A stretch of 24,032 bases of DNA from a virus, in the IMG/VR virus record IMGVR_UViG_3300037089_000924, positions 1 to 24,032 of that record; one strand, 5' to 3'. The notes under the pieces are model-generated. The model was not told the DNA's origin. It made no database searches and saw nothing but the letters and a program-made list of their open reading frames with translations. Positions 1,898 through 15,228 of the stretch are shown in pieces. Position 1 is the first letter of the stretch; each line of letters starts with the position of its first letter. Both the position numbers and the translations under genes were made by a program.

Positions 1898-4800
1898 TAT
1901 GTTATCTGTTGAATTACAAATGTTGAACCTACTAGTATACTACTTGTTCCATTAGATGCATTTTGACAGAATTGAGGGAATAAAGTACCTCCTCCATTAA
2001 CAGTAATTGTTCCTTCAATTACACAGAAACCTGAAGTTGTTCCGGCTTGTCCAACACCTGCTCCTCCTAAAATTGTTTGTCTACTTGTTATAGTATTAAG
2101 ATTACTTGAGTTGTCAATTAACATTACTTGATAAATAATATTAGATGCCGTACATGTACCTGACATAGCAAATTTACTTCCCCCTACGGCATCAGCCGTA
2201 ACATGTAATGTTGCAATAAATGTGTATGTTTTTCCTGTTATAACTGTAGCACTTAAAACTGATATACCAGAAAGAACAGTATTTGTAGTTTGATTTTCTT
2301 GTTGAACTAATCTACTCTGTTGTATCTGAGGTAATTCTTGAGCTATTAATCCGTTATTTGTAAAGTTAAGTTTAGTACCATCATTAAACATATCTCCTTG
2401 ATTAGGAGTAGTTACTGTAGAACCAGATGAAATATTAACAGAAGATACTCCAGTAGTTGAACCTAATATATGTACATTAGCTGTAGGTGTTGTTCCTGTA
2501 GCTCCGAAATATGTTTTACCACCAAACACACTATTTCCCGTATTGACATATAAACTCCAAAGACGAGTTGCAACTAAAGAACCACCTACTGTTGGTGCTC
2601 CATCAATAAATACGTTTGCCGCATCGGATACAGTAGCGGGAGTACCGTTGTTACTAAAATTATCTATTGAAAAAGAGTTGGAATTTGTGTTTGCACTTGT
2701 AGAGCCCGATGCTAAAGTGGTTAAAAAATTACAAGAATCTACTCTAATATGAAGTCCTTTATTAGGTACGACAGTTCCTCCTCCATTAGGAGCCGCCAAA
2801 TAAAGCATAGAAGGACTATTATTACTTACAGTTGCCGGAGCATCTATACGTAATCCATTATTATTGAAAAACATAGCGTATGCACTTCCCGCCGTATTTG
2901 TAACAAAGTAAATATTAGAACCAGAAAACAAAAGCCCCGCACTAGAGGAAACCGATGCTAATCCAGAGTTTGGAATATTACCCGCAATATTTCCCGTAAT
3001 GAAATCATTCTTTTGCAATAAAAAGGTTCCCGTTCCCGTTCCGATACTCTGTTGTAATATAATAGATGCAGTACCGTTTCTATTACCAGCAGTTGAAGGA
3101 CTTTGAACAAATACCGTAGATGTATTTGAATTGCCACTTATTGCAGCTAATGTTGTTCCAGTTGATAATGTAAAGTAAGTTGTATTAAAATTTGAAGGGC
3201 TTAATGTTGTATATCCAACTCCATTTAAATTTAAGTATGTTCCATCATTCCAAATATCTCCATTATTAAGAGTAGTCACGGTTTGTCCAGAGCGAATTCG
3301 TAATGATGCATTACTTACGCTTGAGCCTTGTACATCTAGCATAGCAGTAGGGACATCACCTACACCAACTAATGTTTGTGTTGCTATAAATGTAAATGTT
3401 GAGCTAGTTAAAAATGTGTGTATAGTCTTACCTCCGGATGTTGTAATAATACCTCCGGTACCTATTCCTGTTCCATTTGTATATGATATAATTACAACAC
3501 CAGAACCTCCGGCTCCAGCTGAAGTAGAACCATAACTACCTCCACCTCCACCACCAAGGCCATTAGTTCCACCTCCAGCAGCAACAGCACCAGTTCCTAT
3601 ACCACCAAATCCACCTCCTCCAGCACCTCCTAAAGATGCAGCAGATACAGAACCACCAGCACCACCACCAGCATAAATTGTAGCAATACCACTTATGTTT
3701 GATGTAAGACCACTTCCTCCAACTCCACCTACGTTTGCACTAGGAGCACTAAGACCTACCTGAGCAGCACCACCACCACCAGAACCACCAACAAATCCAG
3801 TATTAATTGGTGTACCACCGCTCTTACCTTGTCCTACAACAGCAGCTCCACCTTGAGCAGTAGCACCATATCCGGAACCACCTCCAGAAGCACCACTCAA
3901 TCCAAATGTTACGCTTGTTCCATTTCCTACTCCAGAACCACCACCACCACCACCTAAAGCAATAGCAATACTTCCGAATGAAGATATACCTCCACTAAAT
4001 CCTTGAATATTATTGTTAAATGTAGGAGCTGTAGCTCCGGAACCAATAGTAATTGTATAAGAGCTTAAATTAGTTAATACTGTTGAACCAGTCAACCAGC
4101 CTCCAGCTCCACCTCCACCAGAACCTCCATCACCTGCTGCTGCAGCTCCACCGGAACCACCACCAGCTACCACCAGGTAGTTTACGGTTACGGTAGATTG
4201 AGTTGTAGCTGTATTTGGTTTAATTATATTTACAGCTGTGTTTCCAGATATTTTAAATTGAATATTATTATTATCATTAGTACCTATATTCATGGTATTC
4301 CCTAACGTATTGCCATTTTGAAGTATGGCAATTCCGTTAAAAGGAATCCAATTGATTCCGTTAAATAATAATGTAGTTAATGTATTTGTAACATATACAG
4401 TATTGTTTTTTACTGGTGCAGTAAAAGTCCAAGTAATTCCTGAAACATATACAGCTTCATCATTTGAACTTGCACTCCAAGCATTTGTTCCACCAGTTCC
4501 AACAAGATACGTATCTCCAACAGTATTAGCAGTTGGAGGAGTGTTAAGCACAGATATGACCGGCGGTAATTCTGTGCCGCTTGGTACTGATGCTCCTGGT
4601 TCCCAAAAACCATTACCCATACTATCAGAGGTTAAAACATAACCTGTTTGTCCACTTGGAGTTAATTGAAACCCTGATGATAATACTAATGTGCTTCCAG
4701 AAATTGATGTTCCAGAAATTACAACAGATTCTATATTTTTTGCATAAAGAGTAAAAGGAGATTGTCCAGTAAAATTATCATAAGCAAAAATAGCAGAAGA

Positions 4801-7457: not shown

Positions 7458-7946
7458 ATGGCAGATATGTTTAGACCAGTTCCTATAGACCAGGAACCTA
7501 AAAGAAAGAATAGATTTACTCTTGAGTTCCCAAGTGAACTTGGAATTGAAGCTTTTCTTGTACAAACAGCAGCAAAACCGTCAATTAACATTAACAAAAC
7601 TGAAATTCCCTATATGAATGGTTCTACCTTCGTTGCAGGTCGTTCGGTTTGGCAGGAAATGGAAATTTCTTTCCTTGATGTAATCGGACCCTCTACTACT
7701 CAAAAAATTATGGAGTGGGTTAGACTTCATTATGAATCTACAACAGGTAGAATGGGATATGCTATTGGATATAAGAAAAACCTTGTTCTTAAAGCTCTTG
7801 ACCCTAATGGAGTTGAAGTTGAAAAATGGACATTAGTTGGAAGCCAAATAGTTACGGCTAAGTTTGATGACTATGACTATGGTGCAGATGATATTGCTAA
7901 GGTTACGATTACCATCCAACCTGACAATTGTCTTTTAGCATCTTAA
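7458..7946 (+). CDS. 19: Tail tube protein, T4 gp19-like
   Basis: 162 residues, matching T4 gp19 (163). Family features along the chain: KNRFTLEFP near the N-terminus, IPYMNGSTFVAG (about 50-61), WQEMEISFLDVIGPS, a TGRMGYAIGYKK segment (about 95-106), LDPNGVEVEKWTLVG, and the C-terminal FDDYDYGADDIAKVTITI. It forms the inner tube of the contractile tail, stacked as hexamers inside the sheath. In T4 it lies next to gp18 in the same direction. Here it is on the opposite strand and about 2.8 kb from the sheath gene, with its own promoter-like motif and a downstream hairpin. No Shine-Dalgarno sequence precedes the ATG. Confidence 0.9.
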   Translation: MADMFRPVPIDQEPKRKNRFTLEFPSELGIEAFLVQTAAKPSININKTEIPYMNGSTFVAGRSVWQEMEISFLDVIGPSTTQKIMEWVRLHYESTTGRMGYAIGYKKNLVLKALDPNGVEVEKWTLVGSQIVTAKFDDYDYGADDIAKVTITIQPDNCLLAS

Positions 7947-7964
7947 TAATAGAATATTACTAAT

Positions 7965-8002
7965 AATTTGCCTGTTGTGATTTTATATCGCACAGGCAAA
8001 TT
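7965..8002 (+). terminator. Hairpin after the tail tube gene
   Basis: Perfect 11-bp inverted repeat AATTTGCCTGT / ACAGGCAAATT with a 16-base loop, 19 bases after the tube stop. It is followed only by CTATATTT, not a full U-run, so it may attenuate or stabilise the tube transcript rather than stop it fully; the next gene starts 14 bases later. Confidence 0.6.
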
Positions 8003-8015
8003 CTATATTTAAGAG

Positions 8016-8423
8016 ATGGGAAGCATAAGATTATATAGAACTTTTTATGTTGTTAATGTTGTGGCTTCAGGAAACACAACATCTGATATCTATACTCAGA
8101 TAAACCCATTTAGTCTAAGCGCTAATACTTTCCTGGCTGGTACTTTAATATCTGCTATTGAATCAGGATTTTCAATAACCAATGAATCATTAGGAGTATT
8201 TTTTGCTGATTTAAATCCATTTCTATACACAGTAGATAATACATATGATTTAGTATGGTATGTTCAATACACTTCTATTGCTCCTGTTAAAAAACTTATT
8301 ACAAGATTCAGAATTAATGCTATAAATATAGGTCAGAGTGTTGATGTAGAAGTCATGCCAAATAATACGGAAATAGAAATATTCCAAAATAGCATAGAAA
8401 TAGAAATATTCCCTAGTATTTAA
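8016..8423 (+). CDS. Small tail-associated protein of unknown function
   Basis: 135 residues, ATG at 8016 preceded by AAGAG, one of the few Shine-Dalgarno-like contexts here. The chain is strand-rich with YTVDNTYDLVWYVQYT (about 70-85) and KKLITRFRINAINIGQ. The C-terminus has a short tandem duplication of EIEIF encoded by a direct DNA repeat. There is no signal peptide or membrane helix. Lying between the tube gene and a baseplate-upper-protein-like gene, it is probably a virion accessory protein. I do not recognise the family. Confidence 0.7.
   Translation: MGSIRLYRTFYVVNVVASGNTTSDIYTQINPFSLSANTFLAGTLISAIESGFSITNESLGVFFADLNPFLYTVDNTYDLVWYVQYTSIAPVKKLITRFRINAINIGQSVDVEVMPNNTEIEIFQNSIEIEIFPSI
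8370..8412 (+). repeat. Short tandem duplication in the 3' end of the 8016 gene
   Basis: GAAATAGAAATATTCC occurs at 8370-8385 and 8397-8412, a 27-base (nine-codon) unit that keeps frame and encodes EIEIF twice. Confidence 0.8.
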
Positions 8424-8441
8424 TAATATAGGACATTCATT

Positions 8442-8801
8442 ATGCCAATAAGTAAAAGTGAATTTACAATAAAAAGAAATGACACTCTTCCTGCTTTACA
8501 AGCAACTCTTGTTGATGTAAATTGCCTTGGCGGTAAACTTCCTTTTAATTTAAGTGCTGTTACAGCTGTTACTTTTACCATGGTTGATAGCTGCGGAAAT
8601 GCAAAAGTTTTACTTCAACCCGCTCAAATAATATCAGCATCTGGTGGTATTTTACAATATAACTGGCAAGTTGGTGATACGGATACTGAGGGTGTATATG
8701 ATGGAGAATTTCAGATGTTCTTCAGCGGAGGAGGAAAGATGTCAGTTCCAAGAGACACTCCTATTTCAATAGAAATTTTTAAGGACATAAATCCTTACTA
8801 A
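8442..8801 (+). CDS. Baseplate-upper-protein-like N-terminal domain protein
   Basis: 119 residues, ATG at 8442. The pattern FTIKRNDTLPALQATLVD, then TAVTFTMVDSCGN, then LQYNWQVGDTDTEGVYDGEF matches the general form of BppU-type N-terminal beta domains, which anchor receptor-binding proteins or decorate baseplates. It follows the 135-residue gene by 18 bases; that gap holds TATTTAA, a one-mismatch version of the late motif that overlaps the previous stop. Its stop codon abuts the stop of the convergent fibre paralogue with no base between. The domain is moderately sure; its exact place in the particle is inference. Confidence 0.75.
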   Translation: MPISKSEFTIKRNDTLPALQATLVDVNCLGGKLPFNLSAVTAVTFTMVDSCGNAKVLLQPAQIISASGGILQYNWQVGDTDTEGVYDGEFQMFFSGGGKMSVPRDTPISIEIFKDINPY

Positions 8802-9610: not shown

Positions 9611-10672
9611 TTATAATGCTTTGATAAACCCCTTAATTTCAGATTTATCAATAAGAACTACAAGCTGGATATTTTGATTTCTAACTGATTCCCATTTAGT
9701 TTCATTTAAAAATTCAAGTTCTTTATCTTTTCCATTTTTATTATATGTCCATCCAGATTTAATTTCTATTTGTTTACCTCTTAAAGTAAAATCTGTGTGA
9801 TAAGTATGTATTTCTCTATTCCAATTATATTCAAAACTTTGACCAGATTTAACCTCATGTAATAAACCTTTTTCTTCTAAAAGTTCAAGAAAGTGTTTTT
9901 CATATGAGCCATTATAATATAATTTAGTGCTTTTATACTTTTTTATACGATATTGAACCTTTTGATGTTTTTGAAACATATCATAATCTTTTAAATGATG
10001 TGATACTCCAAATTTTTCGAGAGAAGTATCTTTCTTTTTTTGTTTAATTGATTCATTTTGAGATATATTTTCTACACCATATTGTTCTTTTACAGTTTCT
10101 ATTATTTTATCTTTAAATTCTTTTTTTTGAGTAACACTTTCTACCCCATATCTCTTTAAATTAGTAATTTTTTGTTTATCTAAAAATTTTTTTGTTTGAA
10201 GCGGATGTTCTACTCCATAATTTTTCTTCATCTCTGCTGACATTATTTTATACCAATTTTTTCCATAATCTACTCCATATTTTTCTTTTTTAACTTGAAT
10301 TGCTTGTTCTGTATTATTATAATTTTCATTTCCATATTTTTTCACCTTTGTTTCTTTAATTTTATCTTTTATAGATTCAAGTTGAAAAACATTATCAACT
10401 CCATATATCTCTTTTACAGCTTCTTTAGAGGCATTAATTCTTGATTCTATACTCTCCGGCAACTCTGACCATGATTTTCTACATATCTCAGAACAAAGCT
10501 TCTTGGAATCTTTTTTTCGTACTGTAAAGTCATTTTTACAATACAAACAACTTCTTTGCTCTCTGCTATTTATTTTCTTTATTTCATCCGCACAATGTCT
10601 GGAACAAGTTTTCATTCCATGTTTTGGATTTTCATTTCCACAACGTTCACATTTATTTTTCATATATTTCAT
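9611..10672 (-). CDS. Free-standing homing endonuclease-like protein with KYGV repeats and PD-(D/E)XK nuclease core
   Basis: 353 residues. ATG at 10672; a second ATG three codons later (10663) is possible. Two Cys4-type zinc-binding units open the protein (C8, C11, C23, C27 and C42, C45, C60, C64). Residues about 88-245 hold seven repeats with core (K/R)YGVxNxxQ spaced about 25 residues apart and rich in Lys, as in DNA-binding repeats of phage homing endonucleases. The C-terminus has a nuclease pattern, YHTDF (Asp294) then IEIK (Glu303, Lys305), which fits a PD-(D/E)XK core. It would cut phage DNA at a specific site and promote its own spread. It sits between the sheath gene and the short fibre gene with its own late-type motif. 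The target site is unknown. Confidence 0.8.
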   Translation of the reverse strand: MKYMKNKCERCGNENPKHGMKTCSRHCADEIKKINSREQRSCLYCKNDFTVRKKDSKKLCSEICRKSWSELPESIESRINASKEAVKEIYGVDNVFQLESIKDKIKETKVKKYGNENYNNTEQAIQVKKEKYGVDYGKNWYKIMSAEMKKNYGVEHPLQTKKFLDKQKITNLKRYGVESVTQKKEFKDKIIETVKEQYGVENISQNESIKQKKKDTSLEKFGVSHHLKDYDMFQKHQKVQYRIKKYKSTKLYYNGSYEKHFLELLEEKGLLHEVKSGQSFEYNWNREIHTYHTDFTLRGKQIEIKSGWTYNKNGKDKELEFLNETKWESVRNQNIQLVVLIDKSEIKGFIKAL

Positions 10673-13526: not shown

Positions 13527-14237
13527 TTACTTCTCTACAATCTTAATAGAAATTCTAGTTACAGCGTTAACCTTTTCAAATTGAGTAGGGTCTATTAATT
13601 TACCATGAACAGTAATATTAAAAGAAATATTGTAAATTCTCTCTGTTTCAATTTCGTCAACCATATTTTTCTCTGTTGGGTCTTCAATTACTGAAGCAAT
13701 ATTATACCCATTAACATTCAAATAACCTTGACCATTTGAATAAGCATCTCTAAGAATTTTTTCATGAAATAAATTAGCATCTTCCTTATAATGAGTTATA
13801 AAGCTCATTTCATAAATAAAATCAACATAAGCTGGTTGCGGTATTTTAAAAATATTATATCCTTTGAGAGTACCATCAAATTTTGGAACTTTCAAAAATG
13901 TAAATTTTTTTTTATTAGGGATTGTGAATTTCATAGGAGCAGTACCTTTTTTTGTACCTGTCCTAAGAATCGTAATAAATGGCCTGGTAATTTCTTGACC
14001 ATTTTCACTTCTCATGTTTTTCCAATTCATCTTTCTTTCAGCCCACAATTCCTGATTAATATAAATTACCGGAACTTGTCTCACATTACCAGATTCATCT
14101 TCTACACTAAAATTAAAACTTTTTATGAAATTCATAATCGCAAAATCAAAGTCCTCTATTGAAAGTTTCTGCGGAAGATAGTTATGATTTTCAAATTGGT
14201 TATCTAAATTTTTACCAATATTATCATTTATGGCCAT
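13527..14237 (-). CDS. Tail completion / sheath stabiliser protein, T4 gp15-like
   Basis: 236 residues, ATG at 14237. Features include VPVIYINQELWAERK (about 55-69), RPFITILRTGTKKGTAP, an IPNKKKFTFLKVP stretch, IFKIPQPAYVDFIYEMSF (about 132-149) and YLNVNGYNIASV. This pattern fits the T4 gp15 family that caps the tail tube and sheath and joins tail to head; T4 gp15 is 272 residues. The position, between neck genes and the sheath gene, matches the T4 order 13-14-15-18. The assignment is from motif resemblance and order, not alignment. A weak A-U hairpin (AAAA-TAGA-TTTT) directly follows the stop. Confidence 0.65.
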   Translation of the reverse strand: MAINDNIGKNLDNQFENHNYLPQKLSIEDFDFAIMNFIKSFNFSVEDESGNVRQVPVIYINQELWAERKMNWKNMRSENGQEITRPFITILRTGTKKGTAPMKFTIPNKKKFTFLKVPKFDGTLKGYNIFKIPQPAYVDFIYEMSFITHYKEDANLFHEKILRDAYSNGQGYLNVNGYNIASVIEDPTEKNMVDEIETERIYNISFNITVHGKLIDPTQFEKVNAVTRISIKIVEK

Positions 14238-14254
14238 GTAAATGAGTGTTTTAT

Positions 14255-14261
14255 ATAAATA
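14255..14261 (-). promoter_or_regulatory. Late promoter-like motif before the gp15-like gene
   Basis: TATTTAT on the minus strand in CTATTTATATAAAAC, 17 bases before the ATG at 14237. It lies back to back with the plus-strand promoter that starts at 14274. Confidence 0.6.
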
Positions 14262-14273
14262 GTTTTAAATTAA

Positions 14274-14305
14274 TTTGGATTAAGTGTTTTCTTATTTTAT
14301 ATTTG
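14274..14305 (+). promoter_or_regulatory. Bacteroidetes-type housekeeping promoter driving the structured RNA
   Basis: TTTG at 14274-14277, then 20 bases, then TATATTTG at 14298-14305. This is an exact match to the published Bacteroidetes consensus (TTTG at -33, TAnnTTTG at -7, about 19-21 apart). Transcription would start at roughly 14310, just before the first RNA helix. No other region I checked has both boxes with correct spacing. Confidence 0.75.
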
Positions 14306-14309
14306 AAAG

Positions 14310-14615
14310 CCTTTTGTTCTCATCACACCGTTTTATTCTGGGGGCGTTGGTTTCGGGATGAGAAATTTTACACTGGAAGATGGTGGTTAACACTAGATTA
14401 CAGGAAAAAAGAAAAAATCGACTTCCTCTTTCCCGTATCCTTTTAACAAAGGATTCTATTTGATGCCTGAACTTAATTATCCTATGGTTACATAGGGGTT
14501 GGCTATAATAGACAAAAGAAAAAGATTACCTTTTCTTTTGATATGGGGGAAAGAGGGGGCGTTGGATTTTTTCTTTTTTCCCTAAAATCTGGTAGTATTT
14601 GATAATACTTTTCTT
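14310..14615 (+). ncRNA. Predicted structured RNA of about 300 nt with a four-way junction
   Basis: This fills the only gene-free stretch over 300 bases (14238-14649). Paired regions: 14317-14324 with 14357-14364 plus 14328-14330 with 14354-14356 (first hairpin); 14395-14399 with 14586-14590; 14403-14419 with 14565-14581 (17 perfect pairs); 14422-14434 with 14547-14559 (10 Watson-Crick pairs extended by U-G, U-G and C-G). Inside are three abutting arms: 14437-14454; 14455-14512 (built from 14455-14460/14507-14512, 14465-14472/14498-14503 and 14481-14486/14491-14496); and 14513-14540. The U-G pairs would be A-C mismatches on the other strand, so plus is favoured, in agreement with the promoter. 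No family is recognised; it is not a tRNA or tmRNA. Ends are estimates. Confidence 0.75.
14594..14615 (+). terminator. Possible weak terminator of the structured RNA
   Basis: AGTATT-TGAT-AATACT hairpin followed by TTTCTT. The stem is six A/T-rich pairs, so termination would be weak. A second AT palindrome, GATTAATATTAATC, lies just downstream. Confidence 0.4.
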
Positions 14616-14649
14616 AGATTAATATTAATCCTAGATTAACATAGGGATT

Positions 14650-15228
14650 TTACCTGGCCTTGAAGACATCTTCATCAATTTCAATCCCTTCGATTGTGAT
14701 GAAAAACCTTCTATCCCCAGCCCAAGAATGTTCATTGTTTATTTGAGAATGACCGTCATCAGTAATTTGATAAAATTGATTTTTATATCCTATAAAATCT
14801 CCCATTTTTATTAGGGAAATAATTTGTTGACCATCAATTTCTTCAATTAAATTTAATTCTTTAAGATGTTCAAAATATACATTTGCAGTGATTTTTCCCA
14901 TTCCTTTTTTAACCAATCCACCGGGAACATGTTGTGCTGGTTTTCCCGCTTCAACATTAATACTACCGTAAACTTTAACTTCAGGGTGCCAAATTTTTTT
15001 CTTAGCTTCTCCATATAATGGATGAGGCTTAGTTTTTATCAAATCTATTCTATAAAATAAAAAACTTTCTTTAAGTATGTCTTCTGTAATTTCTCTTCCA
15101 GCTTCAGTAAAAAAAGTAGCCTCTTGTTCTCCAAAAAACAGGCTAATTCCTTCCTTTTTCGATTCTTTTTCGTCGAATTTCTCAGGTTTTTTGCCTATTT
15201 CATTAAGATTATCTCTATCTTCAGCCAT
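14650..15228 (-). CDS. Neck / head-tail connector protein, possibly T4 gp14-like
   Basis: 192 residues, ATG at 15228, four bases after the stop of the gp13-like gene. The N-terminal 27 residues are charged and probably disordered. The core has LFFGEQEATFFTEAGREITED, then ESFLFYRIDLIKTKPHPLYGEAKKK (split across about 53-78) and a strand-rich C-terminal half ending GDRRFFITIEGIEID. The gene order behind gp13 suggests the gp14 neck position, and the FYRID...YGEAKKK segment is typical of head-tail completion proteins. The gp14 name rests mainly on order. The structured RNA region follows its stop. Confidence 0.6.
   Translation of the reverse strand: MAEDRDNLNEIGKKPEKFDEKESKKEGISLFFGEQEATFFTEAGREITEDILKESFLFYRIDLIKTKPHPLYGEAKKKIWHPEVKVYGSINVEAGKPAQHVPGGLVKKGMGKITANVYFEHLKELNLIEEIDGQQIISLIKMGDFIGYKNQFYQITDDGHSQINNEHSWAGDRRFFITIEGIEIDEDVFKAR

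Follow-up and report, generated by a model that had tools for sequence, protein, structure and literature searches.

GOLLD and ROOL are elaborate noncoding RNAs of unknown function that are encoded by phages and prophages and were found by comparative genomics (PMC12286853). The RNA described here resembles them in being phage-encoded, elaborately structured and found by comparison, whereas GOLLD and ROOL are larger (GOLLD often >800 nt) and are frequently neighbours of tRNA islands; the present RNA is built from two modules, spans about 300 nt and sits inside a neck operon. RNA anti-CRISPRs (Racrs) are solitary mimics of CRISPR repeats and are often found just downstream of a promoter (PMC10651486). 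They share with our RNA the small size, the strong promoter and a probable action on the host, but a Racr mimics a host CRISPR repeat, and the core pattern of the RNA studied here was found in no repeat array of 84,980 genomes. ToxI repeats are short tandem pseudoknots adjoining a toxin gene; type III antitoxin RNAs of this kind and their phage mimics also repeat a structured module in which each copy is a putative binding site, whereas the two modules here are about 100–220 nt apart and lie between phage structural genes. The pRNA of phi29 is made early by the host polymerase from a host-recognised promoter. It is likewise a structured phage RNA with a host-type promoter, and the RNA here is found among head and neck genes, but the phage is T4-like and the RNA has two homologous modules in place of one pRNA fold. 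T4-like phages are not known to use RNA for packaging DNA, and their motor has no known RNA. ColE1 RNA II and the T4 R-loop origin transcripts, finally, are structured, contain G-tracts and a repeated G motif and have a host-type promoter; the RNA here differs in that its locus carries no origin signature and in that it is absent from this locus in some relatives.

The window is the whole stretch of DNA that was analysed, a 24-kb virus record (24,032 nt), and all positions of the RNA gene refer to its plus strand (Table 1). It carries T4-type head and tail genes, including a major head protein and a tail sheath (PHROGs) and a prohead protease (Pfam). A homing-endonuclease-like gene (9611–10672, minus strand; PHROG homing endonuclease, Pfam DUF7487) adjoins the tail sheath gene, as does its relative in contig L008, and three plus-strand open reading frames without Pfam match (7458–8801) are located within the minus-strand structural block. 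Relatives were gathered from IMG/VR, first via the major capsid protein and then by alignment of gene 13527–14237; searching with only the proteins of the two flanking genes gave no matches, and a DNA search of phage records returned AT-rich chance matches only. Judged by the capsid protein, even the closest named phages, Rhodothermus phage RM378, Microcystis phage Mel-JY01 and uncultured giant phages, are distant. All relatives are metagenome-derived virus contigs, and the evidence is sequence-based throughout; the promoter type points to Bacteroidota as the probable host phylum of this group of large phages. A homologue of gene 14650–15228 is found on the far side of the gap in 31 of 32 loci; in the remaining one, L090, the RNA is present although the far flanking gene was not found. 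The gap is 304–594 nt wide in 29 of 31 loci and ~2.7 kb wide in L109 and L110, where it contains extra sequence beyond the RNA. The sequence-only reading had placed the RNA antisense to the head-tail genes: it does run against the late operon, but it is wholly intergenic and overlaps no coding sequence.

Table 1 Features of the RNA locus in the window
Feature	Position	Strand	Basis or remark
RNA gene	14310..14610	+	Fold z −5.6; covariance-model match; predicted transcript ends
Promoter, Bacteroidota sigma-A type, TTTG-N20-TATATTTG	14274..14305	+	Exact match; kept at same place in nearly all relatives
Module 1 hairpin P1	14317-14324/14357-14364, apical loop 14329-14355	+	Covariation, 24 distinct sequences
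Motif 1, GGGGGCGTTGG, in P1 loop	14340..14350	+	Conserved; changes together with motif 2
Tail element of module 1, ATGGTGGTT (family: AUGGUAGUA)	14380..14388	+	Concerted with 14589-14597 across clades
Outer P2	14392-14399 with 14586-14593	+	Minimum-energy fold, mean probability 0.95
P2, 17-bp perfect stem	14403-14419/14565-14581	+	Mean probability 0.97
P4, 13 pairs	14422-14434/14547-14559	+	Mean probability 0.98
Three inner arms, contiguous	14437-14454, 14455-14512, 14513-14540	+	Variable; one to three in relatives
Motif 2, GGGGGCGTTGG, 3′ side of P4	14555..14565	+	Identical to motif 1
Tail element of module 2, CTGGTAGTA	14589..14597	+	Concerted with 14380-14388
3′ hairpin AGTATT-TGAT-AATACT, then TTTTC	14594..14614	+	Mean probability 0.9; possible terminator
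Flanking late gene, neck-type by position	13527..14237	−	Conserved in 32 viral loci; used for synteny and tree
Flanking late gene, other side of RNA	14650..15228	−	Same order in 31/32 loci
CTATTTATA element of late gene 13527–14237	14254..14262	−	Late-promoter candidate; outside RNA

The minimum-energy fold of positions 14300–14620 has a free energy of −99.5 kcal/mol (z = −5.6), a value reached by 0 of 100 dinucleotide shuffles, and mean pair probabilities lie between 0.83 and 0.98 in the outer stems and in the stems that close the three arms. The 17-bp stem, the 13-pair stem and the three contiguous arms, which the sequence-only reading had described for the plus strand, were all reproduced. 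Of the wobble pairs it named, the U-G pairs at 14423–14424/14557–14558 are present and the G-U pair at 14435/14544 is absent from the minimum-energy fold. It had overlooked both the conserved 5′ hairpin P1, whose pairing is missing from this minimum-energy fold, and the composition of the RNA as two copies of one module. The predicted transcript begins about 5–7 nt past the −7 element and ends at the 3′ hairpin; our terminator scan, whose rule requires three G-C pairs, did not list this hairpin. The position of P2 is taken by a helix of different sequence in some relatives, L092 and L094 among them.

A covariance model built on the 5′ domain of the RNA matches 24 distinct virus contigs (E 5e-18 to 3e-7; 16 of the matched sequences were used in building it), always at this locus and, in searches of whole contigs, with a single match per contig. 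The window, itself part of the model, is matched at 14312–14387 (74 bits, E 2.5e-14); the diverged L118 gives a weak match, and a few further, more diverged relatives of the RNA exist beyond the 24 contigs. Compensatory changes in related phages, for which we looked, are present. In P1, each of the eight pairs has changed on both sides among the 24 distinct sequences and still pairs. Of all cells 87.2% are paired, a share that falls to 45–56% on shifting the partner by one to three columns, and the covariation score is 0.596 versus 0.227 ± 0.021. The loop-closing pair of P1 is the strongest covarying column pair in the domain. Among nine relatives that form one clade, a compensatory change is seen in 29 of the 47 pairs that make up P1, P4 and the arms (0/500 shuffles), and 94.8% of cells are paired, versus 38–54% after shifting; the P4-homologous helix in L096–L107 is compensated in 8 of 11 pairs, and a second clade of seven sequences in 14 of 60. 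The locus almost certainly encodes a real RNA gene.

P1, the P2/P4 rod and the two sequence motifs occur in all type A members examined, with the exception of L118, which is without the G motif; type A denotes RNAs of the kind found in the window. The arms inside P4 vary, from a single one in L084, L102 and L111 up to three in others. Because of this variation, the four-way junction that had been put in the foreground is a peripheral, dispensable feature. Three further structural candidates were rejected: (i) a P1b hairpin (UUUU/GGGG) and (ii) a pseudoknot between the P1 loop and downstream sequence, neither with supporting covariation, and (iii) a three-strand switch in which tail 1 or tail 2 pairs with a middle strand, prompted by L107, L114 and L115; the L086 group pairs differently here or not at all.

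The RNA had been proposed to lie outside known families, and this holds: Rfam 15 gives no match in the window at gathering thresholds, and relaxed thresholds yield only matches far below gathering. Neither the GOLLD and ROOL models of Rfam nor those of group I and group II introns match the window, and ARAGORN finds no tRNA or tmRNA gene in it; the flanking genes are intact, and the RNA lies between genes rather than within one. Together with the missing Rfam match, the coding potential speaks against a decayed gene: no open reading frame is conserved on either strand, and the longest plus-strand ATG frames have 6–69 codons and are dissimilar between clades. A short frame starting at AUGGUAGUA was considered and discarded, its reading frame not being conserved. 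Searches of a literature collection returned no description of this RNA.

The sigma-A consensus of Bacteroides consists of TAnnTTTG at −7 and TTTG at about −33, and its −7 part has been confirmed in Flavobacterium (PMC7366714). The promoter that had been read from the window was located in front of the RNA and directed at it; it matches the consensus exactly and is conserved in relatives. Across the whole window 3 exact matches were found versus 1.8 expected, so a single match is not rare. Conservation is more specific: nearly every relative has a promoter before the RNA with ≤2 mismatches to the consensus and a spacer of almost always 20–21 nt. A mechanical scan of 28 leaders yielded 13 exact matches, 14 with one mismatch (in five of which the top-scoring match is located elsewhere in the leader) and 1 with two, while exact matches occurred in 27 of 2000 shuffled leaders. 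By eye, the aligned leaders of all type A, B and C relatives contain a host-type promoter, or at least its −7 part, aimed at the RNA.

The structural neighbours do use a different motif, as had been stated: the late genes carry CTATTTATA, mostly 7–39 nt 5′ of the ATG in this window and in L005–L009 and L014. Read on the plus strand, it appears as TATAAATAG at 14254 and 13493 of the window, shortly upstream of late-gene ATGs. As the reverse complement of TATAAATAG, CTATTTATA is reminiscent of the T4 late TATAAATA, and it is probably the late promoter of this phage group. Folding energy does not choose the strand of the RNA; in single-sequence folding the minus strand has a z-score of −8.6 for this window. 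We assign the RNA to the plus strand because of its promoter, the plus-strand motifs and the count of 73 G-U against 14 A-C helix cells, a comparison that is biased, as helices were defined with G-U allowed.

One module, present twice, forms the core of the RNA: a helix with UGGUAGUA at the base and GGGGGCGUUG at the distal end. Allowing 1 mismatch, the GGGGGCGUUG motif occurs in just two places in the window, namely motifs 1 and 2. The two motifs change together between phages: both copies read GAGGGCGTTAG in L100, GGGAGCTTGG in L114 and L115, GGGGGCTTGG in L111, GGGTGTTG in L090 and GGGGTTG in L109. Tail elements of the UGGUAGUA type behave similarly, with a mean within-phage identity of 6.2/9 compared to 4.4 after permutation (0/20000 as high), determined for ten clade representatives from hand-aligned nine-mers and uncorrected for kinship. 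The two modules may thus represent two sites for the same ligand; gene conversion or a direct contact between the two motifs could also produce their concerted change.

In IMG/VR, 21 stretches match the P1 pattern; 19 of them are this locus and contain the P1 stem. In 84,980 bacterial and archaeal genomes the pattern matches 40 stretches, all as single matches; none of these combines the P1 stem, the promoter and the second motif, and no credible copy of the RNA was found in bacterial genomes by this pattern. Other gaps of G022, G024 and G019, inspected as possible second copies, are coding-like and contain the P1 domain in no case. Distant relatives of the flanking genes (L120, L122–L128) have no such gap, and in L117, L119 and L121 the gap holds other sequence with apparent open frames, judged by eye. 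The frame in the L121 gap resembles, also by eye, a GIY-YIG endonuclease. Such frames in place of the RNA suggest an insertion hotspot between the two neck genes.

In the tree of gene 13527–14237, type A RNA spans the whole clade, and types B and C are nested inside it at the same locus: type B (L085, L091 and L095) forms one starred branch (100/100), and type C is represented by L089. Type B RNA lies on the reverse strand of the gap (about 3551–4000) and has a different architecture of tandem hairpins with conserved sequences of its own, a ACGGACAGAAAUGCAACAC loop, a GGGGGGCGA motif and a G-rich 3′ hairpin. Type C (L089 2343–2936, reverse strand) occupies a 594-nt gap that folds strongly (z = −5.1) but has no type A domain. 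It is possibly a further large structured RNA, and only one viral contig was found to contain its core sequence. Both types sit behind the same kind of promoter as type A. On this tree type A RNA is old and has been replaced at its locus by two RNAs with the promoter kept, RNAs that we consider unrelated to type A by inspection and from the failure of the model to find them. Type B shares a GGGGGGCG tract with type A and could possibly be an extremely divergent form of it.

We tentatively favour the reading that the gap RNA is an early, host-transcribed RNA that acts in trans through two sites for a ligand, which is probably a host factor; we grant this proposal somewhat less than an even chance. 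It is based on the host-polymerase promoter, the two like modules and the exchangeable type of RNA at the locus. Transcription by the host RNA polymerase and its main sigma factor would start at about 14310 upon entry of the phage DNA; this would need no phage factor, while the surrounding structural genes await their CTATTTATA promoters. The transcript of ~300 nt would fold into two domain copies, the P1 domain followed by the P2/P4 domain with its variable spacer arms, and both copies would bind the same sequence-specific ligand. The RNA would then be a trans-acting sponge or decoy with two sites whose target is a host factor; a defence protein or an RNA-binding protein is a plausible candidate. 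Replacement of type A by types B and C with the promoter kept is expected if a trans-acting function tolerates exchange of the RNA. The sequence comparisons establish conservation at the RNA level, a conserved promoter, two modules that vary in concert, the age of the RNA and turnover at its locus; from them we infer transcription, early timing and, most of all, the ligand and the counter-host role. Conservation by descent over a deep clade suits a housekeeping function no less well than an arms-race decoy. Rather doubtful is the more far-reaching proposal of a new viral class of two-site RNAs, in which an early host-transcribed decoy would have identical domains coevolving with a host or phage ligand and a dedicated slot in the neck operon would have been held by at least three unrelated RNA classes in succession.

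Among the alternatives, a primer RNA for a replication origin, working like ColE1 RNA II or a T4 R-loop origin, ranks next in probability, although we consider it improbable. Here, the G-rich motif 1 of the RNA would hybridise to the template opposite motif 2, forming an R-loop, and a processed end would prime DNA synthesis. Such pairing would force the two motifs to be identical, as is observed, and the host-type promoter and a structured RNA with a G-tract in its 5′ hairpin and an identical second one near the 3′ end are in line with it. In contrast, GC skew follows the gene strand in three contigs of 80–100 kb and shows no lasting sign change centred on the RNA, the identity of the D1/D2 tails is not contiguous with the G motif, L117 and L119 are missing the RNA at this locus, and in other members two unrelated RNAs hold it.

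Slightly less probable still is a cis-acting antisense or collision element, with early counter-transcription silencing the late neck genes and the RNA as a by-product or terminator. The orientation of the RNA against the late genes, its location between two of them, the promoter adjoining the late promoter of gene 13527–14237 and the terminator-like hairpin at the RNA end would all be explained. Such a role would, however, require neither a covarying multi-helix fold nor two concerted modules, and the RNA covers no coding sequence.

We regard two functions borrowed from known systems as very unlikely, to about the same degree. A packaging or assembly RNA on the head-neck machine, similar to the pRNA of phi29 and suggested by the sequence-only reading alongside a regulatory RNA, would match the position among head and neck genes and the host-recognised early promoter that pRNA also has; against it stand the packaging of T4-like phages, which is not known to use RNA, the distant relatives that possess homologous genes without the RNA gap (L120, L122–L128) and the lack of any recognised pair of interlocking loops. 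An RNA anti-CRISPR or antitoxin mimic would account for a small phage RNA with a strong promoter and a repeated module, but a CRISPR repeat is much smaller and less structured than this RNA, and for the P1 core, the part that was compared, 84,980 genomes gave 40 matches, all single and none in a bacterial repeat array. That there is no RNA gene but a DNA-level palindrome cluster or a decayed gene is hardly credible: both strands of the window fold well, but compensatory changes, the conserved directional promoter, the (biased) excess of G-U over A-C and the lack of a conserved open reading frame all oppose it.

To our knowledge, few phage noncoding RNAs beyond tRNAs are conserved over a deep virus clade, and from Bacteroidota phages we are aware of almost none. 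As the RNA has a promoter of its own, covaries strongly and carries a sequence-specific module in duplicate, the question of its ligand is directly testable. The replacement of one structured RNA by another at the same locus might be the signature of a host conflict based on RNA.
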